A stretch of DNA of 64,000 nucleotides from Thalassospira povalilytica. Its GTDB lineage: Bacteria > Pseudomonadota > Alphaproteobacteria > Rhodospirillales > Thalassospiraceae. This document shows positions 40,061-64,000 of this stretch, piece after piece. The number at the start of each line of letters is the position of its first letter. The stretch's first letter is position 1. The stretch spans positions 558,001 to 622,000 of the forward strand of contig NZ_PGTS01000001.1 in assembly GCF_002844235.1 (NCBI RefSeq), in the 5' to 3' direction. The position numbers were made by a program, and so were the translations under genes. The notes beneath the pieces are model-generated. The model worked only from the letters and a program-made list of their open reading frames with translations, was not told the DNA's origin and did not search any database.

Positions 40061-40080
40061 ATTTGTTGTGTTTGGGTAAG

Positions 40081-42490: not shown

Positions 42491-42494
42491 TGCC

Positions 42495-45400: not shown

Positions 45401-45797
45401 GATCAGTCATGCCGGTCTTGCCATTGTGCGTCAACGTCCAGGTACGGCATCGGGGGTGGTGTTCATCACGCTTGAGGATGAAACAGGCATCACCAATCTG
45501 GTGGTCTGGAACAAGGTAATGGAAAAATACCGTCGCGAAGTTATGACCGCTACGGTGATGGGGGTAACCGGCAAGCTTCAGCGTGAAGACGGCGTGACCC
45601 ATATCATCGCCGACAAGCTGGTTGATCTGACCCCCATGTTGCAAGGATTGACCGAAAACAACAGAATTGCGCGCAGCAACAATACCCATCCGCGCAATCT
45701 GCGTTGGGCAAGCGGGCTTGATGGTTTGGGTTCCTCACCTGCATCAAAGGCGCAAACTGCCCCGACCCTGAAAATTGACAGTCATGATTTCCATTGA
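42495..45797 (+). CDS. dnaE2: Error-prone DNA polymerase DnaE2 (ImuC)
   Basis: 1100-residue C-family polymerase used in SOS mutagenesis. The PHP domain opens with YAELQVSSNFSFLRGASHAEEL. The polymerase active-site aspartates lie in PPDIDVDFEHERREEV, with GRGSAANSSVCFCL before and the OB fold near residue 950. ATG 42495 follows GGGGGATGATGCC, four bases after imuB. Length and order match the imuA-imuB-dnaE2 cassette. Confidence 0.97.
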   Translation: MTQQAIRTDEPVYAELQVSSNFSFLRGASHAEELVLTAATKGLHAIALTDRNTLAGVVRGHSAHRNYADRLNYIVGCRLDPMDGPSLLCYPTDRVSYARLCRLLTLGKRRAPKGACEIYLADIVDHKDGLLFIAVPPQVPDDAFPSDLVRLKSWFGGRLWLSVGRFMDGFDSERLAFTEEIETRLGIPAVVTNDVHMHLRSRKPLQDVLTCIRHHCRIEDAGYRLFPNGERHIKSPREMARLFPDHPHWLARTVEIADQCTFSLDELRYEYPDENDGSGEGTQERLIRLTWEGAAKRYPEGVPDKVRNLIETELKLIDELGYAPYFLTVHDIVAFARSRGILCQGRGSAANSSVCFCLHVTSVDPNKVELLFSRFISNARNEPPDIDVDFEHERREEVIQFIYERYGRERAGLTATVISYRSRSAIRDVGKVFGLSEDTIVKLTKTIWGSSSKGAHDTMMRQSGIHPDEPRLKAVLDLAGELTGFPRHLSQHVGGFVITRGPLCELSPIANAAMADRTTIEWDKDDIDALGILKVDILALGMLTCIRKALDDLRAHKNIDYDLATLPKEDRATYRMLEKADSIGTFQVESRAQMSMLPRLKPKSIYDLTIQVAIVRPGPIQGGMVHPFLQRRMGREKVEYPSKQLEAVLKRTCGVPLFQEQAMQIAIVAAGYSGGEADNLRRAMATFKRTGTIGEHRTKFINGMLKNGYDIEFAERCFKQIEGFADYGFPESHAASFAILAYASSWLKCHHPDVFLCALLNAQPMGFYAPAQLVNDARNHGVRVLEIDINHSFWDNRLEREMGRASGYHAVRLGFRQIKGFGELDALALMANRPAGGFQDIYLMARQTGLSPAALEKLAEADAFGSLGLSRREALWAVRRFGKGRKPPAALPLFEAAQNFNHNMGVSAEFGPEAPVDLPVMGPGEEIIEDYASLRLSLKGHPISMLRDALGGAGISKATDLARVRDGDRISHAGLAIVRQRPGTASGVVFITLEDETGITNLVVWNKVMEKYRREVMTATVMGVTGKLQREDGVTHIIADKLVDLTPMLQGLTENNRIARSNNTHPRNLRWASGLDGLGSSPASKAQTAPTLKIDSHDFH

Positions 45798-46200: not shown

Positions 46201-47232
46201 CTATAAAATCTCCAGAACACGATTGAGGTGTATTCTACTGTTGATGGATATCCATTCCTTGGACGGTGCGGTTTGCGGGCTTCGTCCTTCTTCCCCCAGA
46301 AAGCAGAACTGCCCGCCCGAGAAAACGTTTTCCGGATGCAGCAGATACTCGTCAGACACGCCGGGAAGTGCGATGGTCACAGGCAGATATCCCGACTTTA
46401 CCAGTGTCGTGATCAGATTGTCTTTCGCATCCAGAAGTGCGAGTGGACGGAACCGGCAACTTCCGCGTTCACCAATCACCCCGAATCTGGACTGTTCGTT
46501 CATGATATAGGTGACACCGGTTTCCAAACCAAGTCCGTCCTCGACCGGCATAAGCGGCCGGATCGATTTCCTCTTGAGAAAAGTCTCAAGAGATTCAATG
46601 CACGAGCGCGGCACATTGGCCGAAATCAGGACCGGCAAACAACCGGTGGAAAAGGTTTCCACAATATCCTTGAGAATGGGCACGCTGCCCGCCCCAGCCT
46701 TGAGCAAAAGCAGTTTGGGTTCTTTGCGTTTGACCAGGATTTCGATTTTCGGACTGTCGCCGATTTCATCCTGTTCCGATCCGAATGAATTGCGCCCCCA
46801 GAAAATGATCTTTTCAAGCATGGTTGCGGCAATACCATCGAGATCGATATCAAGCATCGATGCAGACTTCCAGATCACATCGACCGCACCAAGATTAAGC
46901 AATTCATTGGCCAGTGTATGGCGTTGCTCGCTTAATGAACTCAGAACGATGATCGATGTATCGGCCTCGGACAGAATTTCGCGGGTGGCAGAAATACCAT
47001 CCTGATGGGGCATCGCGATATCCATCGTGATGACATCGGGCTGCAATCTTCGGGCGGCTTCAACGGCTTCAAGTCCGTTTTCGGCTTCCCCGACAATTTC
47101 GATTTCCGGATGATCCTCGCAAAGGGCAACCAAAGCCATTCGCATAAAGACGGAATCATCACAGATAAGCAGGCGTACCGGGCGTTGACCGCCTCGTTCT
47201 TGGGCAGCAAATTTTGTTATTGTCGCTGTCAT
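46201..47232 (-). CDS. Receiver fused to a CheB-like domain lacking catalytic residues
   Basis: 343 residues. The N-terminal receiver is intact: Asp25, Asp26, phospho-Asp71 in TMDIAMP, and the lysine in IWKSAS. The C-terminal domain has the length and predicted fold of CheB methylesterase, but where CheB has GASTGG it reads KAGAGSVPILK, and where CheB has the active-site HMP it reads SANVPRS. It is probably not an esterase and may be a binding or output domain. ATG 47232 follows GGAGAGGAG. Located directly after the giant repeat protein gene, so its partner is likely that secretion system rather than chemotaxis. Confidence 0.75.
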   Translation of the reverse strand: MTATITKFAAQERGGQRPVRLLICDDSVFMRMALVALCEDHPEIEIVGEAENGLEAVEAARRLQPDVITMDIAMPHQDGISATREILSEADTSIIVLSSLSEQRHTLANELLNLGAVDVIWKSASMLDIDLDGIAATMLEKIIFWGRNSFGSEQDEIGDSPKIEILVKRKEPKLLLLKAGAGSVPILKDIVETFSTGCLPVLISANVPRSCIESLETFLKRKSIRPLMPVEDGLGLETGVTYIMNEQSRFGVIGERGSCRFRPLALLDAKDNLITTLVKSGYLPVTIALPGVSDEYLLHPENVFSGGQFCFLGEEGRSPQTAPSKEWISINSRIHLNRVLEIL

Positions 47233-47257
47233 TTTATCCACTCCTCTCCAGACGGGA

Positions 47258-50200
47258 TCAGATCAACGGATCCAACGGATTTGGCAGCACATCGATATCC
47301 AGCGTTGCCGTCGTTGTCGCCACAGTATTGCTCGAAGAATCTTCAACCGTCGCCGTGATCGACAATTGCAGATCGTCTTCGGTGTCCGGCGTGATCGCCA
47401 GACCCACCAGATCCAGAAGCTCAAGCGTATAGGTGCCATCCGGGTTAAGCGTTCCGGCATTAAGCGTCGCACCGTTATCCACCCCGTCAATTGTCAGGGT
47501 GACATCCTCGGTAAGGGCAAGATCACTTACCGTAATCAAAAGCGGCGTGGGCGAGTCCTCGATCACAGCAGCAGAAAGCGACAGATCAAGTGTCGGTGCA
47601 TCTGCGATATTGAGAACTTCCAGATTGATATTGGCAATCGTGCTGTCACTGGTGCCACTGATCGGATCACTGACAGTGGCGGTCACGGTCAGAAGCGAAT
47701 CCCCCGGTTCCAGCGCGGTGACGGTCAAACCGACGAGTTCAGCCTGTGTCAGGGTCCAGCTACCATCGGGGTTTTCGATCCCGGCGGACAGGGTCGCATC
47801 GTTAGGCAATCCTTCGATGGTGACTTCAAGTACCTCGGTCGGGGACAACACACCAACATCGATGGTCAGACCACAAGCAGTGTCTTCGAGGCACAGTGCC
47901 GGCAGCCCCAGATTAAGCGTCGGGCCTTCTGCGACATTGAGGACCTCAAGATTGATATTGGCAATTGTGCTGTCGCTGGTGCCACTGATCGGATCATTGA
48001 CAGTGGCGGTCACGGTCAGAAGCGAATCACCCGGCTCAAGGACAGTGACAGTCAGCCCAACAAGTTCGGCCTGGGTCAGGGTCCAGCTGCCATCCGGATT
48101 CTTGATGCCAGCCGACAGGGTCCCATCATTGGGCAGCCCTTCGATGGTGACTTCCAGTACTTCTGATGGTGCCAGTACACCAACATCGATGGTCAGACCA
48201 CAAGCCGTGTCTTCGAGGCACAGTGCCGGCAGTCCCAGATTAAGGGTCGGGCCTTCTGCGACATTCAGGACCTCAAGATTGATATTGGCAATGGTGCTGT
48301 CGCTGGTGCCACTGATCGGATCATTGACGGTGGCGGTTACAGTCAAAAGCGAATCACCGGGCTCAAGGACAGTGACAGTCAGCCCGACAAGTTCGGCCTG
48401 GGTCAGGGTCCAGCTGCCATCCGGGTTTTTGATGCCGGCCGAAAGGGTCGCATCATTGGGCAGCCCTTCGATGGTGACTTCAAGAACTTCCGATGGTGCC
48501 AACACACCAACATCGATTGTCAGACCGCAAGCAGTGTCTTCCAGACACAGCGCCGGCAGCCCGAGATTCAGGGTCGGGCCTTCTGCGACATTGAGGACCT
48601 CAAGATTGATATTGGCAATGGTGCTGTCGCTGGTGCCACTGATCGGGTCATTGACGGTGGCGGTTACAGTCAGAAGCGAATCACCGGGCTCAAGGACAGT
48701 GACGGTCAAACCGACCAGTTCTGCCTGTGTCAGGGTCCAGCTGCCATCCGGGTTCTTGATGCCAGCCGACAGGGTTGCATCATTGGGCAACCCTTCGATG
48801 GTGACTTCCAGTACTTCTGATGGTGCCAGTACGCCAACATCGATGGTCAGACCACAGGCTGTGTCTTCCAGACACAGTGCTGGCAGGCCAAGGGTCAACT
48901 CAGGACCGTCTGCAACGTTTTCAACCTGAACCGTAAGCGTTTCAGAGACAGATGCAGAGTCTGAGCCATCAACCGAAGTCGCGGTAACTGTCAGATCGAA
49001 CGAGCCATAGTAATCAGCAGGCGGCGTGATGGTCAGACCAGCCAGCTCACCGGCAGTCAGGGTGACGGTCCCATCCGGGTTTACAGTACCAGCCGACAAA
49101 GTAGAACCCGCCGGGATGTCGCTGATGGTGACCGACAGGGTTTCATCCGCATCGGTCAGGCCAGCGGTGATGTCGAGCGCAATGGCGCTGTCTTCGTTGC
49201 CCGAAGCCGGATCAACACTGAGTGTCGGAGCGTCTGCCTGGGCATCAACGGTGACGGCAAGTGTTTCACTAACAGATGCCGTATCCGATCCTTCGGTCGA
49301 AGTCGCCGTCACGGTCAGATCAAACGAGCCACTGAAGTCTTCCGGCGGGGTGATGGTCAGACCTGCCAACTCACCAGCGGTCAGGGTCACAGTCCCATCC
49401 GGGTTTACGGTACCAGCCGACAGGGTGGACCCAGCCGGGATATCACTGATGGTGACCGACAGGGTCTCGTCTGCATCGGTCAGACCAGCGGTGATGTTGA
49501 GTGCAATGGCGCTGTCTTCGTTACCAGAGGCAGGATCAACGCTCAGCGTCGGAGCATCAGCAACCGGATCAACGGTGACAGACAGGGTATCGGCTATGGA
49601 TGCGGTATCCGCACCATCCGAAGACGTTGCAGTCACAGTCAGATCAAACGACCCGCTGAAGTCTTCCGGCGGGGTAATCGTCAAGCCAGCGAGTTCCGCA
49701 GCGGTCAGGGTAACCGTTCCATCCGGATTAACGGTACCAGCCGAGAGGGTGGAACCAGCCGGAATGTCACTGATGGTCACCGACAGGGTCTCATCCGCAT
49801 CGGTCAGGCCAGCGGTGATATCAAGCGCAATGGCGCTGTCTTCATTGCCCGAAGCCGGATCAACGCTCAGCGTCGGAGCATCGGCAACCGGATCAACCGT
49901 AACCGACAGGGTATCGGCGATCGACGCGGTATCTGCACCATCCGAGGAGGTCGCCGTCACAGTCAGATCGAATGAGCCACTGAAGTCTTCTGGCGGCGTG
50001 ATTGTCAAACCAGCCAACTCACCGGCAGTCAGGGTCACAGTCCCATCCGGATTGACGGTGCCAGCCGACAAGGTGGAACCAGCAGGAATGTCACTGATGG
50101 TCACCGACAGGGTTTCGTCCGCATCGGTTAGGCCAGCGGTAATGTCGAGAGCAATGGCGCTGTCTTCGTTGCCGGTTGCCGGATCGACACTGAGTGTCGG

Positions 50201-53200
50201 GGCATCGGCAACCGGATCAACGGTCACAGACAGGGTATCGGCGATCGACGCGGTATCCGCACCATCGGAAGACGTTGCAGTCACGGTCAGATCAAACGAC
50301 CCGCTGAAGTCTTCCGGCGGGGTAATCGTCAAGCCAGCAAGTTCTGCAGCGGTCAGGGTAACCGTTCCATCCGGATTAACGGTACCAGCCGACAGAGTGG
50401 AACCAGCCGGAATGTCGCTGATGGTCACCGAGAGGGTCTCATCCGCATCGGTCAGGCCAGCGGAGATATCGAGCGCAATGGCGCTGTCTTCGTTACCAGA
50501 GGCAGGATCAACGCTGAGCGTCGGTGCGTCAGCAACCGGATCAACCGTAACCGACAGGGTATCTGCAATCGACGCCGTATCCGCACCATCGGAAGACGTT
50601 GCAGTCACAGTCAGATCAAACGATCCGCTAAAGTCTTCTGGGGGTGTAATTGTCAGGCCTGCCAACTCACCAGCAGTCAGGGTCACAGTGCCGTCGGGAT
50701 TAACGGTACCAGCGGACAGAGTGGAACCAGCCGGGATGTCGCTGATGGTGACCGACAGGGTCTCGTCGGCATCAGTCAGACCCGCGGTGATGTCGAGTGC
50801 AATTGCACTGTCTTCGTTGCCCGAAGCCGGGTCAACGCTGAGCGTCGGTGCATCAGCAACCGGATCAACAGTAACCGACAGGGTGTCGGCAACGGATGCC
50901 GTGTCTGCACCATCCGAGGAGGTGGCGGTTACAGTCAGATCAAACGACCCGCTGAAGTCTTCCGGCGGCGTAATCGTCAAACCAGCGAGTTCCGCAGCAG
51001 TCAGAGTGACGGTTCCATCCGGATTAACGGTACCAGCCGAAAGAGTTGAACCAGCCGGGATGTCGCTGATGGTGACCGACAGGGTCTCGTCGGCATCAGT
51101 CAGACCCGCGGTGATATCGAGCGCAATGGCAATGTCTTCGTTACCTGTTGCCGGATCGACACTGAGTGTCGGGGCATCCGCGACCGGATCGACAGTGACC
51201 GAAAGCGTATCGGCGATCGACGCTGTGTCGGCACCGTCACTCGACGTTGCAGTGACGGTCAGATCAAACGACCCACTAAAGTCTTCCGGTGGGGTGATGG
51301 TCAGACCTGCCAACTCACCAGCGGTGAGGGTAACCGTCCCATCCGGGTTTACAGTGCCAGCCGACAGGGTTGCGCCTGCGGGAATGTCACTGATGGTGAT
51401 TTCCAGGCCTTCACCGGCATCGGTTACGCCGGCCGTGATATCAAGCGTGATGGCACCGCCATCTTCAGCGCCGCTGGCGCCATTGACCGTCAGGGTCGGG
51501 GTGCCGGCAACGGCTTCAACCGTTGTCGAGACGTTTTCGGTAACGGTTTCGGTGCCGGCTCCGGACGTGGTTTCAGCGGTTACCGTGAAATCAAGGCTGC
51601 CATTGTAATCGTCAGGCGGGGTCAGGGTAAGACCGGCCAGCTCGCCTGGGGTCAGGGTGACGGAGCCGTCGGGATTGACGGTTCCGGCAGAAAGAGTGGT
51701 ACCGGCAGGCAGGCCGTCAACAGTGACTTCGACAACACTTTCACCGCTTTCAACGGCGACACTGATATCGAGAGGTGTTGCAGCATCTTCCAGCACGGCA
51801 CCATCGAAGCTGACAGTAACACTTGGCAGTGCGCCAGCATCGACCACATCGACAGTCGCACTTTGGGTCGTGCTGTCGGTTGTGCCATTGATGGTGTGTG
51901 TCACGGTGACATCCACCGTGAAGGAGATATTGACGGTTGTCGAAACCGTGAGGGTCAAGCCCGCAAGGTCGCCTTCGGAAAGGGTCCAGCTGCCATCCGG
52001 GTTCTGGGTGCCGGCACTGAGCGTTGCATCAGCGGGCAGACCGGTGACGGTGATTTCTGCGGTAACATCGGCCTCAAGCGGATCGAGGGTGATGGTCAGA
52101 TCGGACGGAACATTTTCTTCGATGACCGGATCGATATCGATCGTGACGGCCGGTGCATCAGCAACCGGATCAACCGTAACCGACAGGGTGTCAGCGATGG
52201 ACGCCGTATCTGCACCATCCGAAGAGGTAGCTGTCACAGTTAGATCAAACGACCCGTTAAAGTCTTCCGGCGGGGTGATGGTCAGACCTGCCAACTCACC
52301 AGCGGTCAGGGTGACGGTGCCATCCGGATTAACGGTGCCAGCCGACAAGGTGGAACCCGCGGGGATATCACTGATGGTGACCGAGAGGGTTTCATCCGCA
52401 TCGGTCAGGCCAGCAGTGATGTCGAGTGCAATCGCGCTGTCTTCGTTGCCCGAAGCCGGGTCAACACTGAGCGTCGGGGCATCTGCAACCGGATCAACGG
52501 TGACAGAGAGCGTATCGGCGATGGATGCGGTGTCTGCGCCATCCGAAGACGTTGCAGTCACAGTCAGATCAAACGACCCGCTGAAGTCTTCCGGCGGCGT
52601 GATCGTCAGACCGGCCAGCTCACCGGCAGTCAGGGTGACGGTGCCATCAGGGTTTACAGTACCAGCCGAGAGGGTGGAACCCGCCGGGATATCACTGATG
52701 GTGACCGAGAGGGTTTCATCCGCATCGGTCAGGCCAGCAGTGATGTCGAGTGCAATCGCGCTGTCTTCGTTGCCCGAAGCCGGGTCAACACTGAGCGTCG
52801 GGGCATCAGCAACCGGATCAACCGTAACCGACAGGGTGTCGGCAACGGATGCGGTATCCGCACCATCGGAAGACGTTGCAGTCACAGTCAGATCGAAGGA
52901 CCCACTGAAGTCTTCCGGCGGGGTAATCGTCAGACCGGCAAGTTCTGCAGCGGTGAGGGTCACAGTCCCGTCCGGATTAACGGTACCAGCCGACAGAGTG
53001 GAACCCGCCGGGATATCACTGATGGTGACCGAGAGGGTTTCATCCGCATCGGTCAGGCCAGCAGTGATGTCGAGTGCAATCGCGCTGTCTTCGTTGCCCG
53101 AAGCCGGGTCAACACTGAGCGTCGGAGCATCAGCAACCGGATCGACGGTGACCGACAGGGTATCTGCGATGGATGCCGTGTCCGCGCCGTCACTCGACGT

Positions 53201-54976
53201 TGCGGTGACGGTCAGATCAAACGATCCGCTGAAGTCTTCCGGCGGTGTGATCGTCAGGCCTGCCAGTTCCGCAGCGGTGAGGGTCACAGTCCCATCCGGG
53301 TTTACGGTACCAGCCGACAGGGTGGACCCAGCCGGGATATCACTGATGGTGACCGACAGGGTCTCGTCTGCATCGGTCAGACCAGCGGTGATGTTGAGTG
53401 CAATGGCGCTGTCTTCGTTACCAGAGGCAGGATCAACGCTGAGCGTCGGAGCATCAGCAACCGGATCGACGGTGACCGACAGGGTATCTGCGATGGATGC
53501 CGTGTCCGCGCCGTCACTCGACGTTGCGGTGACGGTCAGATCAAACGACCCGCTGAAGTCTTCCGGCGGGGTAATCGTCAAGCCAGCGAGTTCCGCAGCG
53601 GTCAGGGTAACCGTTCCATCCGGATTAACGGTACCAGCCGAGAGGGTGGAACCAGCAGGAATGTCACTGATGGTCACCGACAGGGTTTCATCCGCGTCAG
53701 TCAGACCGGCAGTGATGTCGAGCGCAATGGCGCTGTCTTCATTGCCGGTTGCCGGATCGACACTGAGCGTCGGTGCATCTGCCTGGGCATCGACGGTGAC
53801 GGCCAGTGTTTCACTAACAGATGCCGTATCCGATCCTTCGGTCGAAGTCGCCGTCACGGTCAGATCAAACGACCCGCTGAAGTCTTCCGGCGGGGTGATG
53901 GTCAGACCGGCCAACTCACCGGCAGTCAGGGTGACAGTCCCATCCGGGTTTACTGTGCCAGCCGACAGAGTGGATCCCGCCGGGATGTCGCTGATGGTGA
54001 CCGACAGGGTCTCATCCGCATCAGTCAGACCAGCAGTGATGTCGAGCGCAATAGCGCTGTCTTCATTGCCCGAAGCAGGGTCAACGCTGAGCGTCGGGGC
54101 GTCTGCACCGTCATTTGCAGCAAGTTCAAAAGACTCGCTATCGACGACTTCACCGGTTTCAGTGTTGATGACAGTGACAGTAACATTGTAATTGCCGATG
54201 GTTTCTTCGGTAATGGCAACGCTCAGCCCATCAAGTTCATCAACGCTGACCTGCCAGATCCCGTTGCCGAGATTGTCACCGGCAGAAAGGGTCGCGCCAT
54301 CAGGCATGCCCTGGATCAGGATGATGTAGATCGAGGTGGAGTTATCTTCGAAAACATTGATGTTCAGTGTCAGGTTTTCACCACCCGCACCTTCGACATC
54401 ATTTACCGAAAGAACATCGGAGCCCGAAGCCCCCGCCGCCGCATCATCGGCACTGGCACCAGCAATGGTTGTGGTACCGCCACCACCCCCGCCGCCGCCC
54501 ACCGAGCGGGCAGCCGCAGATGAGCCGCCAGAACCCGATGTGCCACCAGCGCCACCCCCGCCGCCAAAGCCGTTGCCAAAGGTGTCGCCGGTGTCAGGCT
54601 GGGTAACCGGTTGCAGAGGCGGGCTGTTGGTTTCAATAATTTCCTGCCCGTTTCCTGCGATCGGGGCCTGATTGTTTACGATTTTGGTCGAGGAGGCATT
54701 GTTTCCGGTCCCGCCCAACTCTATGTTTGAAACAGAGCTGTCGCCATCCTGAAGGACAGATTCATTGTAGTTTTCGGAGGAGTTCGAAATATCGGGTGAC
54801 TGCGTGTAGCCTTCATCCGGGGCCGCTTCGATACGGGGGTCATACCACTGACGGCTTCCCGTATGAACGCTGGAAAGCGAGGTATCCTGTCGCAGAGACA
54901 CCTGAAGGCTCTGGCCATCGTCAGCCTGAACTTTCGGTGTGTTGACTTGTCCCTGATCACGTATGTCAGCCATCAT
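47258..54976 (-). CDS. Giant Ig/cadherin-like repeat surface protein (2572 residues)
   Basis: Probable secreted adhesin. Residues 1-130 are polar and unusual, and 135-190 are Gly/Ser-rich. From about 190 the protein is one divergent domain, then six near-identical 108-residue repeats (291-938), two divergent domains, eight more 108-residue repeats, four 109-residue repeats with CLEDTACG, and a last domain ending DIDVLPNPLDPLI. Each repeat has ADAPTLSVDP, NEDSAIALDI, TLSAGTVNPDGTVTL and LTITPPEDF. There is no Sec signal, no RTX nonapeptides and no LPxTG. The adjacent ABC/HlyD genes point to type I secretion. Starts at ATG 54976 or 54973 after TTGGAG. Confidence 0.85.
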   Translation of the reverse strand: MMADIRDQGQVNTPKVQADDGQSLQVSLRQDTSLSSVHTGSRQWYDPRIEAAPDEGYTQSPDISNSSENYNESVLQDGDSSVSNIELGGTGNNASSTKIVNNQAPIAGNGQEIIETNSPPLQPVTQPDTGDTFGNGFGGGGGAGGTSGSGGSSAAARSVGGGGGGGGTTTIAGASADDAAAGASGSDVLSVNDVEGAGGENLTLNINVFEDNSTSIYIILIQGMPDGATLSAGDNLGNGIWQVSVDELDGLSVAITEETIGNYNVTVTVINTETGEVVDSESFELAANDGADAPTLSVDPASGNEDSAIALDITAGLTDADETLSVTISDIPAGSTLSAGTVNPDGTVTLTAGELAGLTITPPEDFSGSFDLTVTATSTEGSDTASVSETLAVTVDAQADAPTLSVDPATGNEDSAIALDITAGLTDADETLSVTISDIPAGSTLSAGTVNPDGTVTLTAAELAGLTITPPEDFSGSFDLTVTATSSDGADTASIADTLSVTVDPVADAPTLSVDPASGNEDSAIALNITAGLTDADETLSVTISDIPAGSTLSAGTVNPDGTVTLTAAELAGLTITPPEDFSGSFDLTVTATSSDGADTASIADTLSVTVDPVADAPTLSVDPASGNEDSAIALDITAGLTDADETLSVTISDIPAGSTLSAGTVNPDGTVTLTAAELAGLTITPPEDFSGSFDLTVTATSSDGADTASVADTLSVTVDPVADAPTLSVDPASGNEDSAIALDITAGLTDADETLSVTISDIPAGSTLSAGTVNPDGTVTLTAGELAGLTITPPEDFSGSFDLTVTATSSDGADTASIADTLSVTVDPVADAPTLSVDPASGNEDSAIALDITAGLTDADETLSVTISDIPAGSTLSAGTVNPDGTVTLTAGELAGLTITPPEDFNGSFDLTVTATSSDGADTASIADTLSVTVDPVADAPAVTIDIDPVIEENVPSDLTITLDPLEADVTAEITVTGLPADATLSAGTQNPDGSWTLSEGDLAGLTLTVSTTVNISFTVDVTVTHTINGTTDSTTQSATVDVVDAGALPSVTVSFDGAVLEDAATPLDISVAVESGESVVEVTVDGLPAGTTLSAGTVNPDGSVTLTPGELAGLTLTPPDDYNGSLDFTVTAETTSGAGTETVTENVSTTVEAVAGTPTLTVNGASGAEDGGAITLDITAGVTDAGEGLEITISDIPAGATLSAGTVNPDGTVTLTAGELAGLTITPPEDFSGSFDLTVTATSSDGADTASIADTLSVTVDPVADAPTLSVDPATGNEDIAIALDITAGLTDADETLSVTISDIPAGSTLSAGTVNPDGTVTLTAAELAGLTITPPEDFSGSFDLTVTATSSDGADTASVADTLSVTVDPVADAPTLSVDPASGNEDSAIALDITAGLTDADETLSVTISDIPAGSTLSAGTVNPDGTVTLTAGELAGLTITPPEDFSGSFDLTVTATSSDGADTASIADTLSVTVDPVADAPTLSVDPASGNEDSAIALDISAGLTDADETLSVTISDIPAGSTLSAGTVNPDGTVTLTAAELAGLTITPPEDFSGSFDLTVTATSSDGADTASIADTLSVTVDPVADAPTLSVDPATGNEDSAIALDITAGLTDADETLSVTISDIPAGSTLSAGTVNPDGTVTLTAGELAGLTITPPEDFSGSFDLTVTATSSDGADTASIADTLSVTVDPVADAPTLSVDPASGNEDSAIALDITAGLTDADETLSVTISDIPAGSTLSAGTVNPDGTVTLTAAELAGLTITPPEDFSGSFDLTVTATSSDGADTASIADTLSVTVDPVADAPTLSVDPASGNEDSAIALNITAGLTDADETLSVTISDIPAGSTLSAGTVNPDGTVTLTAGELAGLTITPPEDFSGSFDLTVTATSTEGSDTASVSETLAVTVDAQADAPTLSVDPASGNEDSAIALDITAGLTDADETLSVTISDIPAGSTLSAGTVNPDGTVTLTAGELAGLTITPPADYYGSFDLTVTATSVDGSDSASVSETLTVQVENVADGPELTLGLPALCLEDTACGLTIDVGVLAPSEVLEVTIEGLPNDATLSAGIKNPDGSWTLTQAELVGLTVTVLEPGDSLLTVTATVNDPISGTSDSTIANINLEVLNVAEGPTLNLGLPALCLEDTACGLTIDVGVLAPSEVLEVTIEGLPNDATLSAGIKNPDGSWTLTQAELVGLTVTVLEPGDSLLTVTATVNDPISGTSDSTIANINLEVLNVAEGPTLNLGLPALCLEDTACGLTIDVGVLAPSEVLEVTIEGLPNDGTLSAGIKNPDGSWTLTQAELVGLTVTVLEPGDSLLTVTATVNDPISGTSDSTIANINLEVLNVAEGPTLNLGLPALCLEDTACGLTIDVGVLSPTEVLEVTIEGLPNDATLSAGIENPDGSWTLTQAELVGLTVTALEPGDSLLTVTATVSDPISGTSDSTIANINLEVLNIADAPTLDLSLSAAVIEDSPTPLLITVSDLALTEDVTLTIDGVDNGATLNAGTLNPDGTYTLELLDLVGLAITPDTEDDLQLSITATVEDSSSNTVATTTATLDIDVLPNPLDPLI
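47612..48925 (-). repeat. Four tandem 327-base repeats (CLEDTACG type)
   Basis: Four copies of about 109 residues, each with the motif LPALCLEDTACGLTIDVGVL, two cysteines six residues apart. The middle copies are almost identical in DNA as well as protein. This is a separate repeat family from the 324-base units upstream. Confidence 0.88.
48925..51502 (-). repeat. Eight tandem 324-base repeats (second array)
   Basis: Eight 108-residue Ig-like units. Differences between copies are few and reshuffled (PASGNEDS or PATGNEDS, TAGELAG or TAAELAG, ASIADT or ASVADT), the pattern left by recombination between units. Boundaries are approximate. Confidence 0.88.
52162..54106 (-). repeat. Six tandem 324-base repeats (first array)
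   Basis: Six 108-residue units, residues 291-938 of the giant protein, separated from the second array by two divergent domains (about 51502-52162). The first unit and the seventh unit of the second array share the rarer STEGSDTASVSETLAVTVDA ending, which suggests exchange between arrays. Confidence 0.88.
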
Positions 54977-55134
54977 TCGTCTCCAAGAATTCCGTCGGCG
55001 AACAGGATTTCGCCCATAGATTTGTCGTTATTCCGATGAATTCTGGAGAAGCGGGCGCAACAAAGAAATGCACTTTTGGTTGCAAAATGTTATTAAATTG
55101 TAATGCCTGGTGTACAATTGAATTGGGGTCTTTT

Positions 55135-55860
55135 TTGACACAAAGCCTGACCATCATGATCGTGGATGACGATCCTGATATCACAAATCTTCTTGAGGTT
55201 TATTTATCCGAAGAAGGGTATGAGGTCGTTGTTGCCCATACAGCCCAGGCAATGTGGGAATTGTTGGATAGCCAGACAATTGACCTGATACTGCTTGATA
55301 TCATGTTGCCGGACGGAGACGGTTTCGACCTGACGCGGAAGTTGCGCGAAACGCTGACTTCGCCGCTGATCATTCTTTCGCGCAAAAGTGACAGCATCGA
55401 CCAGATTGTCGGTCTTGAGCTTGGCGCGGATGATTATGTCACAAAGCCGCTGGAACCGCGTAACCTGTTGGCACGCATAAGAAGTTTGTTGCGCCGAACC
55501 AATCTGAACAATGCCGCCCAACCTGCAGCACCCGCAGCGGGCGACAAGCACATCCGGTTTGCCGAGTGGTCACTTGATGCCCAGACACATCGTCTGACGC
55601 ATGACAATGGTGACGAGTTTACGCTGTCGGCAAACGAGGCAGAATTGCTGTATTTCCTGGCAAGCAATAGCGGTCAGGTTCTGTCGCGCAATGACCTTTC
55701 TGTCGCGGTGAGTGGCCGGGAATGGGAATATATGGACCGCAGTATCGATATCCTGATTGCGCGTCTGCGCAAACGGATTGAACGCGAACCCGCCGAGCCG
55801 GAATTCATCCAGACGGTGCGCGGCAAGGGATATGTTTTCAGCAGTTCCGGTGACAATTGA
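55135..55860 (+). CDS. OmpR-family response regulator
   Basis: 241-residue regulator. The receiver has DDDPDITNLL, phospho-Asp55 in LLLDIMLPDGDG and the lysine in DYVTKPLEPRNLL. The winged helix ends RKRIEREPAEPEFIQTVRGKGYVF (shown as RGKGYVF motif). I use TTG 55135, which has GGGG upstream and gives MTQSLTIMIVDDD; ATG 55156 is the next choice, and a longer frame from 55036 reads through an A+T-rich promoter-like region. Divergent from the giant protein gene and upstream of the exporter genes, so it likely controls both. Confidence 0.88.
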   Translation: MTQSLTIMIVDDDPDITNLLEVYLSEEGYEVVVAHTAQAMWELLDSQTIDLILLDIMLPDGDGFDLTRKLRETLTSPLIILSRKSDSIDQIVGLELGADDYVTKPLEPRNLLARIRSLLRRTNLNNAAQPAAPAAGDKHIRFAEWSLDAQTHRLTHDNGDEFTLSANEAELLYFLASNSGQVLSRNDLSVAVSGREWEYMDRSIDILIARLRKRIEREPAEPEFIQTVRGKGYVFSSSGDN

Positions 55861-55991: not shown

Positions 55992-57689
55992 ATGTCAGAG
56001 TCAACGACGAGCCAAACACAGGTTTTGCAGGCAGCAGGAAAGACACGCGGCATTCGTTTGAATGAAGCGCTAACCCTGTTTGCTGCGTCTGCAATGCTGA
56101 ACCTGCTGGCTCTGGCGATGCCGGTTGCGATCCTTCTGGTTTATGACCGGGTATTGCCGAGCTCCTCTATTCCGACATTGACGGTCTTGCTGATCGGCAT
56201 CGTCATCGTGGTGGCGTGCGACATGCTGTTGCGGTTCTCGCGGCAGGCCATTCTGGCCAAGGTTTCCGCCCGGCTTGATTATTCCCTTCGTGAAAAGACA
56301 TTTTCGCGCCTGTTGCGTCAGAGCTTCCCGACGGCGGCACGCATTCCGTTCGGTGTTCTGAGTTCGACCTTCAATATCGCCAACAGCAAACGCGAATTTA
56401 CTCTGCTGCGGGCACAGCTGATCGCAGATTTGCCATTTCTGATCGGCATTCTTTCGATCGTCGGGCTGATTGGTGGCTGGCTGGTCATGATGCCGATCAC
56501 ATTGCTGATGCTGTTTGCAATTGTCATTTCGATCTTGGCTGTTCTTCATACACGGGCGTCAAAAAGCTACTTCGATAGCGAAGATGCGCGTCAGCATTTT
56601 CTGTCGGGTGTTTTTGACAATCTTGGCCATGCCAAATCGCTGGCATGCGAGGTCGCGCTTTCCGACAAGTTTGTGAACATTCAGGGCGCGCATTCAGAAA
56701 GCCTGCGCCGGATGAAGTTCCTGTCAGCATCCAGTGTCGAGATCTTTACCTTTGTCACCCAGGCCCTGATCGGGTCGGTGATCGTGGTTGGTGCGCTTTC
56801 GGTTTTGTCGGGCAATATGACATATGGTGGTCTGGCGGCGTGCACGCTTTTGACCGGTCGTTCGATCGAGCCGCTTAAAACCTGCTATCAGTTCCTGATG
56901 CAGTTCCAGCTGCACCGTCTGAACAAACAGCGTGAAATCCTTAAACTGAAGCTGGGCCGTGCGACCGATGCGGCACCGTCAGCGGTCAAGTTGCCGCGTT
57001 GGAGTGCCGCGCCGAAACTTTCGCTTTATCAGGTCAGCGTCTGCCGGGTCGGTGAAGATCAGGCCTGCCTTGAAGACATCACGGTTGATATCGAACCGGG
57101 CACGATTGTCAGCATCGAAGGCGGCCGCGGTGATGGTAAAACCACATTTTCGCGAGCGCTTCTGGGGCTGTGCCCGATCGTGGGCAATATCACCATCAAT
57201 GGTATCCGCCTTGAAGGCAGTTCGGCCGAACTCATTCGCAGCAACACAACCTACATCGGGACATCGCCCCAGTTGCCGGAAGGAACGGTGATTGATGCGC
57301 TGACCATGGGCAACCAGGATAACTATGCCGATGTGCGTTATCTGAGCCATCTGATCGGACTTGATCAGGCGGTCAAACGCCTGCCCAAGGGATATGCAAC
57401 CGAAATCGGTTCAACCAATACCGCACTGCCGACCGGCTTCCTGCAAAAGATCGCAATCGTACGTGCCCTGGCGCTGAAGAAGAAGTTCATCATTCTTGAT
57501 GATGCAACATTCGGTCTTGATGCCAACACCGAAATCCGTCTGTCGCGGTTGATCAAGGCCCTGTCGGGCAAGGCAACTGTCCTGATTTTCAGCGACCGTG
57601 AAACCCTTAAGGCTGTCTCGTCGCGGCGCTTCAAGCTGTCCGAAGGCCACTTACAAGAAATCAGAACCGTGGAGGCGAGAGCAAAATGA
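55992..57689 (+). CDS. Type I secretion ABC half-transporter with degenerate ATPase domain
   Basis: 565 residues: six membrane helices, then a nucleotide-binding domain. Walker A is intact (GGRGDGKTT). The signature reads LPTGFLQK in place of LSGGQ, Walker B is FIILDDATFGLD with Asp replacing the catalytic Glu, and the switch is IFSDRE with no His. It should bind ATP but hydrolyse poorly. It overlaps the next ABC gene by four bases (ATGA). I infer a heterodimer with that protein. Confidence 0.86.
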   Translation: MSESTTSQTQVLQAAGKTRGIRLNEALTLFAASAMLNLLALAMPVAILLVYDRVLPSSSIPTLTVLLIGIVIVVACDMLLRFSRQAILAKVSARLDYSLREKTFSRLLRQSFPTAARIPFGVLSSTFNIANSKREFTLLRAQLIADLPFLIGILSIVGLIGGWLVMMPITLLMLFAIVISILAVLHTRASKSYFDSEDARQHFLSGVFDNLGHAKSLACEVALSDKFVNIQGAHSESLRRMKFLSASSVEIFTFVTQALIGSVIVVGALSVLSGNMTYGGLAACTLLTGRSIEPLKTCYQFLMQFQLHRLNKQREILKLKLGRATDAAPSAVKLPRWSAAPKLSLYQVSVCRVGEDQACLEDITVDIEPGTIVSIEGGRGDGKTTFSRALLGLCPIVGNITINGIRLEGSSAELIRSNTTYIGTSPQLPEGTVIDALTMGNQDNYADVRYLSHLIGLDQAVKRLPKGYATEIGSTNTALPTGFLQKIAIVRALALKKKFIILDDATFGLDANTEIRLSRLIKALSGKATVLIFSDRETLKAVSSRRFKLSEGHLQEIRTVEARAK

Positions 57690-59800
57690 CGCTTACTCCA
57701 GTTACCACAGCAGGCCGCACGACAACCGAGAATGCCAAGAATCCGTTCGAGGAACTTCGCTTCGAAGGTCTTCACAGGCTGTTCGTCAAGGCAGGTTTGG
57801 CTGTTACGACAACAGACCTTGCAACCATCACGCAGAATTATGAGCGTTTGCAGCTTGAAGATATTGCCAAATTCTCGCTAAGCCTTGGCGCATCCCCGGA
57901 ACTGGTGAACGGATCGTTGCGCGATACGCTGTTCTTCGGGTTGCTGTGTGTTTTCGAAACCCGCGAAGGCAATCTGATTGCCATTACCCCGAACGGGGAC
58001 GGCCCGCCCATCTGTTTGCGGATCGATAATGGTCTGGAAACAGAAATGCCGGCACTTGATTCGATCGGGCGTGCATTGGTGTTTTCGGTTGCCGAAAACA
58101 ATCGCAGCAATGCCGGTTCAATCCGGGCCACCATTTTTGAACAGATTTCGCAATATCTTGACGGGCACGGACCGCTGATTGCGTTTTTGACGCTGGTATC
58201 AAGTACCCTTGGTCTGGCATTGCCGCTATTCACACTTGCCATTTATGACCAGGTTCTGGCCGCCGAAAATACAACAATCCTTGCCTATGTGATTGTCGGT
58301 TTCATGCTTGCCGTGGTGGGCGAGTTTTGCGCGCGGATGATCCGTGCCTGGATATTGGCCAAGGTTTCCGCCAATACCGAATTTCGGGGCAATACCCGGA
58401 TTTTCAGCCGTTTGCTCAAAATCTCGCACACCGAATCCCGGATGTTTGACAGCCGCCTTGGCCTGACCAGGATGCGCGATGTTGAAACCGTGCGTAACTT
58501 CATCACCGGACCGGTCGGCATGGCGCTGATCGAAGGCCCGGTCAGCATCATCTATTTCATTGCACTTGCGGTGTTGGGTGGGTGGCTTGCGGCGGTGCCG
58601 GCACTTGTGGTTGGTGGTGGTGTGGTGCTTATTCTGGTGCTGTTGGCGCCGCCGTCATCACGCAACATGCTGACGATCCAGAAGGCCGATGATTTCAATC
58701 TTGTCTGTCATGAAATTGCCCGTCGTCTTTTGACCATCAAACTGGCGGCACGTACGCAGAACTGGCTCAACAGGTTCCGTGATGCATCAGCCCGCCTGTC
58801 AGAAGCAGACCGTCTGCGTCAAAGCAAATTGCATCTTGCCCGTATCATTTCGTCGGGTCTGGGGTCGCTTGCTGTCACAGCAACGCTTGGATTTGGCACG
58901 ATTGCCGTTCTGGACCAGAATTTGACAGTCGGTGCGCTGATTGCCTCGGTTGCGCTGGTCTGGCGGATCATGTCCCCGGTGCCATCAATGCTTGAAGCCA
59001 AGCTGCGCTGGAACGACACCAAAAATTCGATGGATGTCTCGCAGGCCAATGCCGACATGATGTTTGACAATTCGGCGGCCGACGGCACGGGCAACCAGAT
59101 CAAGGGCATCAATGGCAACATTTCGCTCAGCGGTGTGACCATTACCTTCCAGCGCGGTATTTCCCCGGCACTTCGCAATGTGTCACTTGAAATCACCGCG
59201 GGCGAAACCATTGCCATTACCGGTCATAGCGGTTCGGGCAAGTCGGTTCTGCTTGATGTGATTGCCGGGACAACCGCCCCGCAGATCGGCACAATCACGA
59301 TTGATGGCGTATCGCCAAGCCATGTGCCGCCGAACGTTTTGCGTCAATCGATGTCCTATATGTCACGCGATACGATTCATCTGCCCCTGACCATTCGTGA
59401 ATATCTCGAACATGCCGATCCGTTCGACAAGACGATCTCGGCAGAACTGATCTGCAAGCAGATGGGCCTTGAATTCGAAGTTCAGCGGTTGCCAAACCGC
59501 TATAACACGTCGCTTTGCGATCTGGACCCACGAAGCAGCCTTGGTCGCATTCTTTCGATGGCGCGTGCGTTCTATTGCCGTCGCGGGTTGCTTCTTCTTG
59601 ATGAACCCGATGCCGCCAGCATTCAGTCGCGTCATCTTTTCATGTCGGAAATCGAAGAAAGACGCGGCAAATCGACAACCATTTTCACCACGCACGAGCC
59701 GGAATATCTTCGTGTTGCCGACCGCGTGCTGGTTCTTAATCAGGGAATGCTGGTGCGCAACTGTGCGCCAAGCGAACTGTCCCAGAAGCGGGGAGCTTGA
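57686..59800 (+). CDS. Type I secretion ABC half-transporter with N-terminal extra domain
   Basis: 704 residues. Residues 1-145 form a C39-like position domain with no catalytic Cys, typical of RTX/adhesin exporters. Six membrane helices and an ATPase domain follow, with Walker A GHSGSGKS, Walker B LLLLDEPDAAS and switch IFTTHEPE all present. The signature reads RSSLGRIL in place of LSGGQ. It is the better-preserved member of the pair, sharing ATGA junctions with its neighbour. Confidence 0.88.
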   Translation: MTLTPVTTAGRTTTENAKNPFEELRFEGLHRLFVKAGLAVTTTDLATITQNYERLQLEDIAKFSLSLGASPELVNGSLRDTLFFGLLCVFETREGNLIAITPNGDGPPICLRIDNGLETEMPALDSIGRALVFSVAENNRSNAGSIRATIFEQISQYLDGHGPLIAFLTLVSSTLGLALPLFTLAIYDQVLAAENTTILAYVIVGFMLAVVGEFCARMIRAWILAKVSANTEFRGNTRIFSRLLKISHTESRMFDSRLGLTRMRDVETVRNFITGPVGMALIEGPVSIIYFIALAVLGGWLAAVPALVVGGGVVLILVLLAPPSSRNMLTIQKADDFNLVCHEIARRLLTIKLAARTQNWLNRFRDASARLSEADRLRQSKLHLARIISSGLGSLAVTATLGFGTIAVLDQNLTVGALIASVALVWRIMSPVPSMLEAKLRWNDTKNSMDVSQANADMMFDNSAADGTGNQIKGINGNISLSGVTITFQRGISPALRNVSLEITAGETIAITGHSGSGKSVLLDVIAGTTAPQIGTITIDGVSPSHVPPNVLRQSMSYMSRDTIHLPLTIREYLEHADPFDKTISAELICKQMGLEFEVQRLPNRYNTSLCDLDPRSSLGRILSMARAFYCRRGLLLLDEPDAASIQSRHLFMSEIEERRGKSTTIFTTHEPEYLRVADRVLVLNQGMLVRNCAPSELSQKRGA

Positions 59801-59802
59801 TC

Positions 59803-61164
59803 ATGAGCAAGAACAAGTACGCCATCCCACAGGGCGATACCGGGAAACCAAACAACAGCAAGTTTACGGTCGACGCCCCTGTGACGGCAATCCAGCTGTT
59901 TGACAAAAAATCCACCCACCGGCCGGCCATGTTTACGGTGGTCTTCATGCTGGTCTTCTTCCTTGGGGCAACTGTCTGGTCAACCCAGACACCGATGGCC
60001 GAGATTTCGGTCAGTTCCGGCGAAATTGTGCCGGTTGGCGCGATCCAGCGTATCCAGCATCTCGAAGGCGGGATTTTGTCGCATCTTGCGGTCAAGGATG
60101 GTCAACACGTTACCGAAGGACAGTTGCTTGTCAGTCTGGCCCCCGATATCGCGCAGTCCGAACTTGAACAGCTTGAAACCCGTTTGATGGCCGTCACCAT
60201 GAAATACGGGTTGCTGAAATCCGCCGCCGAAGGAACGACACCCGCCGAACTGATGCAGACCGGTGTCTATTCCGAAATTGCCGAAACGGCATTGAAAGCG
60301 TTGAACAGTCGTAAACAGCGTCTGGTAAGCCAGCTTGATGTTCTTCGTCAGCAGGAACGCGAACGCAAGGCTGAACTGACAACGATCACCCACCAGTCCA
60401 ATGCGCTGGGCGAACAAATCGATCTGATGCAGAATCAGGTCGACGGGCGTCAGATTCTGGTCGACAAGGGACTTTTCCCGCGTCTGGACTTCATTCAGGA
60501 TCAGCGTGAACTAGCCCGTCTTCAAAGCGAACGTATGGCATTGATCCTGGATGCGGACCGTATCAATGAACGTGTTGTCGAAGCACGCCAGCGTATGATC
60601 GAAATGGAAATGACGTTCCATGCCGAACTGACAGCCGAACTCAGTGCGCTTGCCACCGAGGCCGCTGAACTTCGTCTGGCAATCAAACGTGCGGTTGATC
60701 GTGTCAAACGTCTGGATATCACGTCCCCGGTGTCGGGATACGTCAAAGGGATCGATATTGAAACGATCGGCGGGGTGATTACCCCGGGTGCGCAGATCAT
60801 GGAAATTGTGCCTGATGACAGCGAACTGATCGTTGAAGCCCGTCTGTCGACAAATGATGTCGGACATGTGACCGTCGGTCAAAGTGCCAAGATCAAAGTT
60901 CTGACATATGACTATACCCGCTATGGAACAATCGAGGGCACGGTACAGCGTGTTTCGCCATCGACATTCTTTGACGAAGACGGAACCCCGTTCTTCAAGG
61001 CGGACATCGCCATGAACAGCTATATCGTGGGTGAAGAGGACAAATTCCTGGTCAGTCCGGGCATGACGGTTCTGGTCGATATCATCACCGGCGAGAAAAC
61101 CCTGTTCAAATATCTTGCATCCCCGATCATCAAAAGTTTCGATGGCGCATTGCACGAAAGATAA
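59803..61164 (+). CDS. HlyD-family type I secretion membrane-fusion protein
   Basis: 453-residue periplasmic adaptor. One N-terminal membrane helix (MFTVVFMLVFFLGATVW) is followed by a lipoyl half-motif (GGILSHLAVKDGQHVTEGQLLV), long coiled coils (about residues 100-280), and the second lipoyl half and beta-barrel (DITSPVSGYVKGIDIETIGG). The LDLISRGD-like end region is IITGEKTLFKYLASPI. ATG 59803 is preferred over TTG 59797 because GGGGAG is eight bases upstream. No TolC homologue is in the window. Confidence 0.94.
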   Translation: MSKNKYAIPQGDTGKPNNSKFTVDAPVTAIQLFDKKSTHRPAMFTVVFMLVFFLGATVWSTQTPMAEISVSSGEIVPVGAIQRIQHLEGGILSHLAVKDGQHVTEGQLLVSLAPDIAQSELEQLETRLMAVTMKYGLLKSAAEGTTPAELMQTGVYSEIAETALKALNSRKQRLVSQLDVLRQQERERKAELTTITHQSNALGEQIDLMQNQVDGRQILVDKGLFPRLDFIQDQRELARLQSERMALILDADRINERVVEARQRMIEMEMTFHAELTAELSALATEAAELRLAIKRAVDRVKRLDITSPVSGYVKGIDIETIGGVITPGAQIMEIVPDDSELIVEARLSTNDVGHVTVGQSAKIKVLTYDYTRYGTIEGTVQRVSPSTFFDEDGTPFFKADIAMNSYIVGEEDKFLVSPGMTVLVDIITGEKTLFKYLASPIIKSFDGALHER

Positions 61165-61749: not shown

Positions 61750-64000
61750 CTATTGGCTTTTGGCAAGCTGCTTCTGGACCCAGTGCATGACCTTGTTCAC
61801 CAGTCGGTCGGGTTCGATTGGCTTGGTGATATAGTCATTCATTCCGGCATCCAGGCATTTTTCCTTTTCACCCGACATTGCATTGGCGGTCATGGCGATG
61901 ATCGGAATGTTTGACATGACAGGGCCAAGAATGCCGCTTCTGATCTGTTTGGTGGCTTCGAACCCGTCCATGCCCGGCATCTGACAATCCATCAAGACCG
62001 CGTGAATCGGCTCGGAAGCATGGCGCATGGTTTCGAGTGCCTCGGCACCGTTGGTTGCGGTCAGCAGGGTGAAATCCATTCCTGACAGCAATCCCTTGGC
62101 GACTTCGATATTGATGGCATTGTCATCGACAATAAGAATGGTCGCCAGTTTGTCAGATGCCGCATTGGCATCAGCGGTACTGGTTTGGGGGACGTCGGCA
62201 GTTATCGGTTGCAGGGCCTTTGTCCCGGACGGCGTATGCGGGGCGGGTTGCTGGCGATGATCCGGATCAAGATTGACAACCAGTTCGGAATAGCTGACCG
62301 GTTCGGACAGCCAGTTTGTCTTACCCGAATATTTTATCGGATTGCGCCGGAAGTTCTGCACGATCAGCAAATGCGGTGGCGTATCGCCATCGGTTGTCAG
62401 GTTGCTTAGAAACGCACAGAACTTTTCAAGTTCGCGATCGGTGTGATCGGTAATTGCAACATCGGGCAGCGGCCGTATTTTGTCTGATACCGCGTCTGTC
62501 TTTATGTTGATGACATCACCGCCAAGCCGTTTGATCAGGCGCGATACCGCAATGACAGCTTGTTCATGCGCAAGATCAAGCAAGACATATTTGTCTTTCA
62601 GAAGTGCCGGAACAGGACGCTTTTTGGCGGTTTTGGCATCGAAATACACATGGAAGAAAAAGCGGCTTCCGGTTCCTTTGGTGGAATCAAAATTGATGTC
62701 GCCATGCATCAGCCCGCAAAGCTGCCGACAGATCGACAATCCAAGGCCGGTGCCACCGAATTCAGATGAAATGGATGTGTCTTCCTGGGTGAAAGCGGTG
62801 AAAAGCTTGTGTTTGTTTTCTTCTGAAATGCCAATGCCGCTATCTTCGACGGAAACATCAAGGCGAATGCGTTCGCCTTCAACTTTGCTTGCGACAAAAA
62901 TACCGACATATCCCTCGTCGGTGAATTTTATGGCATTGCTCAGAAGATTATTGAGCACCTGCTTCAAGCGTGTGGCATCGCCATACAGTTCAATATGATC
63001 AAGATCCACCGTATCAAGGATCAGGTCCAGACCCTTTTCACGTGATCGAATGACCGATGAACTTGCAATGGCTTCAAACAGTTGCAGGGGATTGAACGGC
63101 TTGCTTTCAAATTCGAGTTTCCCGGCTTCGATCTTTGACAGATCAAGGATGTCGTTGATCAATGTCATCAGGGTCGAACAGCTGGTTTCGGCCATCAGCA
63201 GGTATTTGCGCTGATTTTCGGTCAGTGGATCGCGTTCTATCAGTTTGTGGGCACCGACCATGCCGTTTAACGGGGTGCGCATTTCGTGACTGACATTCGA
63301 GATAAAAGCACTTTTCATGTCGCTTGCCTGCAGCGCCTTTTTGTGAGCTTCGGCAAGTTCGGCTGTACGTTTGGCGACTTTTTCCTCAAGCTCGGCATTG
63401 GCGCGGCGGATCTGGCGTTCGGCGATCCTTTCCTGGGTCACATCACGGGCAATTACCGCAGCCCCGGTGATCCCGCGACCGTCGCTAATGATCGGGGAAC
63501 AGGTCAAAAGAAGTTCTTTTTTGTCGGTGCTGGCCGAAACAAATGTAGCGTCAAAGGACACAGGTGTTTTTGACGTCGTGACCTGTTTGATTTTTTCGAC
63601 AAAATCGACATCCGGCAGGATGTTCAGATCGGCGATATTGCGCCCTATTACTGCATTCGGGTTTATTCCAAACATCTTTTCGGCGGTTTCATTGATGCTG
63701 GAAACCGTTCCGGATCGCTTGAGACCGATCACCCCGTCAGAAGAACTGCGGATGATTGCTTCATGTTCTGCGCGGGCATCGGCAAGCTGGATGCTGCTGC
63801 GATATCCCCGCAGCAAAAGCAACAGGGCAATGGTCATGATGATGATCGAAACTGCGGCAAAACCGTATGTCGACAGGCGCCTTTTCCAGATCACGTCGGC
63901 GACCCGTTGCGATGCTATTGCGGCATACAGGTGCAATACCGATGCCGGGTTTGACGCAAACTGAATGGTGGATGCCTGAATATAAAATCGACGGTTCGAA
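61750..64000 (-). CDS. Hybrid sensor histidine kinase (5' end beyond window)
   Basis: The frame stays open to the right window edge, so the N-terminal sensor is missing; about 750 residues are visible. Order: end of a periplasmic domain, membrane helix (YGFAAVSIIIMTIALLLLL), PAS domain (EAIIRSSSDGVIGLKRSG to VIARDVTQERIA), HisKA with FISNVSHEMRTPLNG, HATPase (LLSNAIKF, DSGIGIS, GGTGLGLSI), a degenerate receiver-like segment, and a C-terminal receiver with IVDDNAINIEVA and VLMDCQMPGMDG. There is no HPt domain, so it probably passes phosphate through the stand-alone HPt protein of this locus. Confidence 0.92.
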   Translation of the reverse strand, partial: SNRRFYIQASTIQFASNPASVLHLYAAIASQRVADVIWKRRLSTYGFAAVSIIIMTIALLLLLRGYRSSIQLADARAEHEAIIRSSSDGVIGLKRSGTVSSINETAEKMFGINPNAVIGRNIADLNILPDVDFVEKIKQVTTSKTPVSFDATFVSASTDKKELLLTCSPIISDGRGITGAAVIARDVTQERIAERQIRRANAELEEKVAKRTAELAEAHKKALQASDMKSAFISNVSHEMRTPLNGMVGAHKLIERDPLTENQRKYLLMAETSCSTLMTLINDILDLSKIEAGKLEFESKPFNPLQLFEAIASSSVIRSREKGLDLILDTVDLDHIELYGDATRLKQVLNNLLSNAIKFTDEGYVGIFVASKVEGERIRLDVSVEDSGIGISEENKHKLFTAFTQEDTSISSEFGGTGLGLSICRQLCGLMHGDINFDSTKGTGSRFFFHVYFDAKTAKKRPVPALLKDKYVLLDLAHEQAVIAVSRLIKRLGGDVINIKTDAVSDKIRPLPDVAITDHTDRELEKFCAFLSNLTTDGDTPPHLLIVQNFRRNPIKYSGKTNWLSEPVSYSELVVNLDPDHRQQPAPHTPSGTKALQPITADVPQTSTADANAASDKLATILIVDDNAINIEVAKGLLSGMDFTLLTATNGAEALETMRHASEPIHAVLMDCQMPGMDGFEATKQIRSGILGPVMSNIPIIAMTANAMSGEKEKCLDAGMNDYITKPIEPDRLVNKVMHWVQKQLAKSQ

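Follow-up and report, generated by a model that had tools for sequence, protein, structure and literature searches.

The window, which is the whole 64,000-nucleotide stretch of DNA analyzed, encodes a CheB-like response regulator that retains the phosphorylation residues of its receiver and has lost all three catalytic residues of its methylesterase domain. The gene lies between the genes for a giant adhesin and an HPt protein, in a cassette that also encodes an OmpR-type regulator, a paired-ABC T1SS exporter, and a histidine kinase (Table 1). On balance, we consider that the protein is probably a CheB-derived pseudo-methylesterase response regulator, which would have no enzymatic role and, as the last member of a phosphorelay dedicated to adhesin export, would bind a partner under the control of phosphorylation; this reading was drawn from comparisons of sequences and gene neighborhoods.

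Table 1. Features of the CheB-like gene and of the surrounding cassette in the window.
Feature	Position	Strand	Remarks
CheB-like response regulator	46201..47241	-	ORF from GTG, 346 aa; probable start ATG at 47232, 343 aa
Receiver domain, residues 22-126	46864..47178	-	PF00072, E 1.7e-19
Conserved linker, residues 127-150 (DIDLDGI..EKIIFWG)	46792..46863	-	58-75% identity to same-genus orthologues
Degenerate CheB methylesterase domain, residues 175-346	46204..46719	-	multiple and profile alignments
HPt protein, 113 aa	45857..46198	-	PF01627, E 2e-6; His56 invariant; gene follows the CheB-like gene after 2 bp
Giant repetitive adhesin, 2572 aa, Big_9/cadherin-like repeats	47258..54976	-	gene precedes the CheB-like gene by 16 bp
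OmpR-type response regulator	55036..55860	+	PF00072 and PF00486; divergent from the adhesin; orthologues in all cassettes
T1SS ABC subunit 1 (ABC1)	55992..57689	+	catalytic ATPase motifs altered
T1SS ABC subunit 2 (ABC2)	57686..59800	+	orthologue in exactly four carrier genomes
HlyD-type membrane fusion protein	59797..61164	+	TIGR01843, 353.7 bits, above cut-off
Stand-alone receiver-like protein, 134 aa	61236..61640	+	assigned from sequence reading
Hybrid histidine kinase (PAS-HisKA-HATPase-REC)	61750..64000	-	runs past the window end to position 64878

The receiver and the degenerate CheB domain

Residue numbers of the CheB-like protein are counted from the GTG codon. The ATG lies three codons inside the GTG reading frame and is preceded by GGAG at a spacing of 8 nt, and because of this spacing it is the likelier start. 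The receiver contains the phospho-acceptor D74 (47020–47022) and the acidic pair D28/D29. These residues, together with S101/S102 and K125, were invariant across all five orthologues, which bears out the claim of the preliminary description that the receiver retains all phosphorylation residues (D28/D29, D74, and K125). The receiver of the window protein showed 60–63% identity to those of the same-genus orthologues. Of all 20-residue segments, residues 121–140 were the most conserved (70% invariant columns); this segment continues into the linker motif EKIIFWG. As a suggestion only, a docking role may be retained near this motif, and the phmmer alignment offset would place it just after the motif. 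Domain searches detected no DNA-binding domain in the protein.

The receiver-linker-methylesterase layout of CheB (PF01339; 1chd, 1a2o, 3sft, 6ymz) is common to the window protein, with homology over nearly the whole C-domain. The NCBIfam CheB model matched residues 21–255 with an E value of 4e-38, under its cut-off. PF01339 scored 19.2 bits on the window protein, under the cut-off of 24, and 35.7, 47.1, 41.0, and 83.5 bits on the four orthologues, all above it. A profile of the linker and C-domain of the family matched the solved CheB domains 3sft, 1chd, and 1a2o with E values of 1.6e-12 to 1.6e-11, and profile-profile comparison with intact CheBs gave a probability of 98% over 180 columns. 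These comparisons argue firmly for homology of the window C-domain to the CheB methylesterase. AlphaFold2 models of the window protein as a single sequence (pLDDT 39) and of the C-domain together with one CheB domain from viral contigs (pLDDT 44) were too poor for structural use, and Foldseek found nothing matching the latter at E 0.001. Because the structural models are unusable, we infer the fold of the C-domain from profile homology.

The catalytic Ser, His, and Asp were replaced in the window protein by Gly183 (46693–46695; GASTGG to KAGAGS), Asn209 (46615–46617; QHM to ANV), and Glu298 (46348–46350; TGMGxDG to PGVSDEY), respectively. The profile alignments to 3sft, 1chd, and 1a2o agreed with the MAFFT alignment in placing Gly, Asn, and Glu at the triad. 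In the MAFFT alignment of 81 CheB homologues, all three residues were kept in 75 sequences, with 75 Ser and 6 Gly in the Ser column, 75 His in the His column, and 76 Asp in the Asp column. Each of the five cassette proteins kept none of the three; the columns read G/N/E in the window protein, L003, and L004, G/D/V in L008, and G/Q/R in L024. The replacement of GASTGG and of HMP (as SANVPR) had been reported in the preliminary description and was confirmed, the loss of Asp is additional to it, and the alignment of orthologues at the three positions proposed there found the triad lost in the window protein and in the four orthologues. Chance was rejected as the cause of the loss, given that 75 of the 81 homologues keep all three residues.

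An intact Ser-His-Asp elsewhere in the domain, which would have contradicted the preliminary description, was not seen at the sequence level. No column of the orthologue alignment held a conserved His in the C-domain, nor was there a conserved Asp. The only invariant polar residues of the C-domain in the four same-genus proteins were S186 (in the GxGS loop), S213, and C214, and none of them was kept in the cassette protein of G275, a genome of another order. A relocated triad is thus unlikely.

Two further CheB sequences were observed outside the cassettes. In a che cluster of G107 with CheR- and CheD-like neighbors, a CheB (L022:9850-11040) has the triad G/R/D; its Ser and His were lost independently and its Asp was kept, making it the sixth triad exception among the 81 homologues. 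An IMG/VR contig classed as viral encodes a stand-alone CheB methylesterase domain (L112:1441-2061) with GSSTGG, QHIP, and TGMGKDG and no receiver, adjoining a ParA-like gene.

The identity of the C-domain among the same-genus orthologues was about 25%. Nei-Gojobori dN/dS values, estimated from a single close orthologue pair (L020 and L021) with high dS, were 0.018 for the receiver and 0.095 for the C-domain; bootstrapping put the upper bound of the latter at 0.156. These values suggest purifying selection on the catalytically dead C-domain in the L020/L021 lineage, weaker than that on the receiver. Pseudogene decay of the C-domain is disfavored by the value of 0.095 in this pair.

The adhesin cassette and its distribution

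The adhesin, CheB-like, and HPt genes lie on one strand, and the genes for the OmpR-type regulator, ABC1, ABC2, and the HlyD-type protein are divergent from them; a kinase, a receiver, and an HPt protein are thereby co-encoded with the CheB-like gene. No adjoining chemotaxis gene was seen, and the genome has a separate intact CheB, encoded on another contig within a cheR-cheB-cheW-cheA cluster, in agreement with the earlier statement that the gene is encoded with an adhesin and not with chemoreceptors. A scan for promoters and terminators was uninformative.

Among the 29 genomes of the genus, the CheB-like gene was present in four (G000, G096, G073, and G153), and in all four the adhesin end, the CheB-like gene, and the HPt gene were adjacent in that order. 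In the three relatives, contigs start with the adhesin N-terminus, followed by the OmpR-type regulator, ABC1, ABC2, the HlyD-type protein, the kinase (PAS-HisKA-HATPase), and the stand-alone receiver; the presence of the adhesin in these relatives was assigned by position and by matching N- and C-termini. The adhesin of the window has many near-identical repeats, and its repeat number is not comparable with the others because the assemblies of all three relatives break within the repeats. Orthologues of ABC2 (38–39% identity, >500 bits) occurred in exactly the four carrier genomes, and in the other genomes the best match, if any, was a paralogue scoring about 250 bits. On a DnaE2 tree, which takes in three carriers (the fourth has no DnaE2), the carriers were scattered and required three changes, at least two of them forced by well-supported branches. 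These results indicate that the co-occurrence is not simply the shared descent of one clade.

Several further observations were made on the cassettes. The ABC pair (55992–59800) is asymmetric in all four same-genus cassettes: in ABC1, Asp replaces the Walker B Glu and the H-loop His, and ABC2 keeps both residues and has lost the LSGGQ signature. This asymmetry resembles that of heterodimeric exporters in which one of the two ATP sites is degenerate; in G275, ABC1 alone was compared. Genes like an imuA-imuB-dnaE2 mutagenesis cassette (40063–45797, plus strand) adjoin the adhesin cassette in the window, and imuB/dnaE2-like genes also flank the G073 cassette (L020), which suggests the same chromosomal site. 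The G153 cassette has a gene for a Peripla_BP_6 periplasmic binding protein (L135:7670-8884), perhaps a sensory partner, between the HlyD and kinase genes.

A cluster of common plan was found in G275, the one genome of its order examined, with a divergent OmpR-ABC-ABC group and with CheB-like, receiver, HPt, and kinase genes nearby. Its CheB-like protein (L083:8988-10085) has likewise lost the triad (Gly/Gln/Arg), although it is less eroded, as seen in its PF01339 score of 83.5 bits. The gene adjoining the CheB-like gene of G275 encodes a 735-aa protein that BLAST did not relate to the adhesin of the window, and the link to the adhesin is therefore shown within the genus only.

In the tree, the cassette proteins grouped with the intact CheBs L026 (G214), L027 (G499), and L089 (G750) with support of 92/80, and a further intact CheB, L090 (G555), fell just outside the group. 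The four same-genus cassette proteins formed a clade (100/100); G275 had a long branch, and the five cassette proteins formed one clade in 28% of the bootstraps. All four intact CheBs have the same linker type, ending ..KLRYW or EKVRHWG-like as in the window protein, and, unlike the cassette proteins, they keep the triad. The genes around L026, L089, and L090 encode CheA, CheR, CheW, and receptors, which the window gene lacks. The cassette protein thus likely descends from a che-cluster CheB of this linker type.

In a scan of the phylum (398 genomes), no further cassette was recognized among the matches examined, and the next best of these, in G750 and G555, were the intact CheBs in che clusters. 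A class scan with ABC1 found paired-ABC exporters to be widespread; in G331 and G205, compared by coordinates, the listed CheB homologues were far from the ABC pair. Scans of viral contigs for CheB-like relatives returned almost exclusively receivers, an initial scan of genome contigs returned unrelated receivers only, and a plasmid collection gave no match to the CheB-like protein. Searches of the open-access literature, which misses most subscription journals, turned up no account of either a dead CheB response regulator or the present cassette.

Proposed phosphorelay output and its alternatives

Multistep phosphorelays consist of a hybrid kinase, a receiver, an HPt protein, and a response regulator. 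All of these part types occur together in the window cassette, where the terminal regulator has a dead enzyme domain. We propose that phosphate from the nearby histidine kinase would pass by way of a receiver (the kinase's own, the stand-alone one, or both) to the HPt protein, which would then phosphorylate the CheB-like receiver at D74; the OmpR-type regulator would form the transcriptional branch of the relay. In CheB, the receiver covers the active site until it is phosphorylated. The unphosphorylated receiver of the window protein may likewise mask the face of the C-domain that once held the active site, and phosphorylation would expose it. The exposed face, without Ser, His, and Asp, could not hydrolyze a substrate; its role would be binding to a partner within the adhesin/T1SS apparatus, and this binding would decide between export and retention of the giant adhesin. 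The presence of a transcriptional output of the OmpR type in the cassette and of a CheB-like protein without a detected DNA-binding domain supports this mechanism. The preliminary description had proposed recruitment as a phosphorylation-controlled binding module acting on secretion; what stood is that a CheB-type domain was recruited after complete loss of catalysis, with its phosphorylation site kept and in a conserved adhesin/T1SS/HPt cassette, and the binding, the gating, and the secretion target, to which OmpR phosphorylation would be an alternative, are what we infer.

Several points weigh against the mechanism: gene neighborhood does not prove pathway order, the low identity of the C-domain also fits a loosely constrained shield or sink, the selection estimate comes from one orthologue pair with high dS, and the neighboring protein in G275 is unlike the window adhesin. 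If the receiver alone mattered, the protein would be a phosphate sink or branch-point buffer that drains HPt phosphate from the OmpR-type regulator, with the dead C-domain as a passive cap. The far higher identity of the receiver than of the C-domain among the same-genus orthologues fits such a role, as does the presence of two receiver outputs and one HPt protein per cassette. However, the C-domain has its full length in five genomes and a dN/dS of about 0.09 in the measurable pair, and a stand-alone receiver, of a kind already present in the clusters, would suffice for draining. On these grounds, we regard a mere sink as unlikely, though deserving of attention. The dead domain might also bind one of the other signaling proteins (OmpR-type regulator, kinase, or HPt protein) and regulate it as a subunit, so that the effect on the adhesin would be transcriptional only. 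A divergent OmpR-type gene in every cassette is consistent with this idea, but the operon position beside the adhesin gives such a partner no preference over the secretion apparatus, and we judge the idea to be quite improbable.

The invariance of S186, S213, and C214 in the four same-genus proteins could mean that the protein is still an enzyme whose active site has changed or moved. Their absence from G275, the Gly at the canonical nucleophile position in all five cassette proteins, and the lack of conserved catalytic residues in the domain disfavor this reading and make it very doubtful. Descent from che-cluster CheBs is the sole point in favor of the view that the protein works in trans on chemoreceptors as a normal chemotaxis CheB; this is scarcely credible, because the absence of the triad already contradicts it at the sequence level and the genome has its separate intact CheB.

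Significance for CheB and for adhesin control

CheB is the textbook enzymatic output of a response regulator, and the window protein differs from it in keeping the receiver residues without the Ser, His, and Asp, and in being encoded in an adhesin/T1SS cassette rather than in a che cluster. Giant adhesins are known to be under Lap-type control (LapA/LapD/LapG). Post-translational control of a T1SS giant adhesin is the theme proposed to be common to Lap-type control and to the window cassette; the signal is c-di-GMP with proteolysis in the former, whereas we propose phosphorylation in the latter. No LapD/LapG-like gene was noticed in passing among the cassette genes. Extended from the window protein to its relatives, the phosphorylation-gated binding module leads to the more tentative view, which we put forward as a possibility, that a dedicated family of CheB pseudo-methylesterases forms a non-transcriptional phosphorelay output gating the export or retention of giant adhesins via a paired-ABC T1SS. 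The cassette is compact and genetically tractable for testing this. If it is true, the CheB domain is used outside chemoreceptor adaptation and without catalysis. A dead CheB that is conserved, selected, and linked to an adhesin exporter would demonstrate that this domain can turn into a binding module switched by phosphorylation, and it would point to a phosphorelay route of giant-adhesin control beside that of the c-di-GMP/Lap type.
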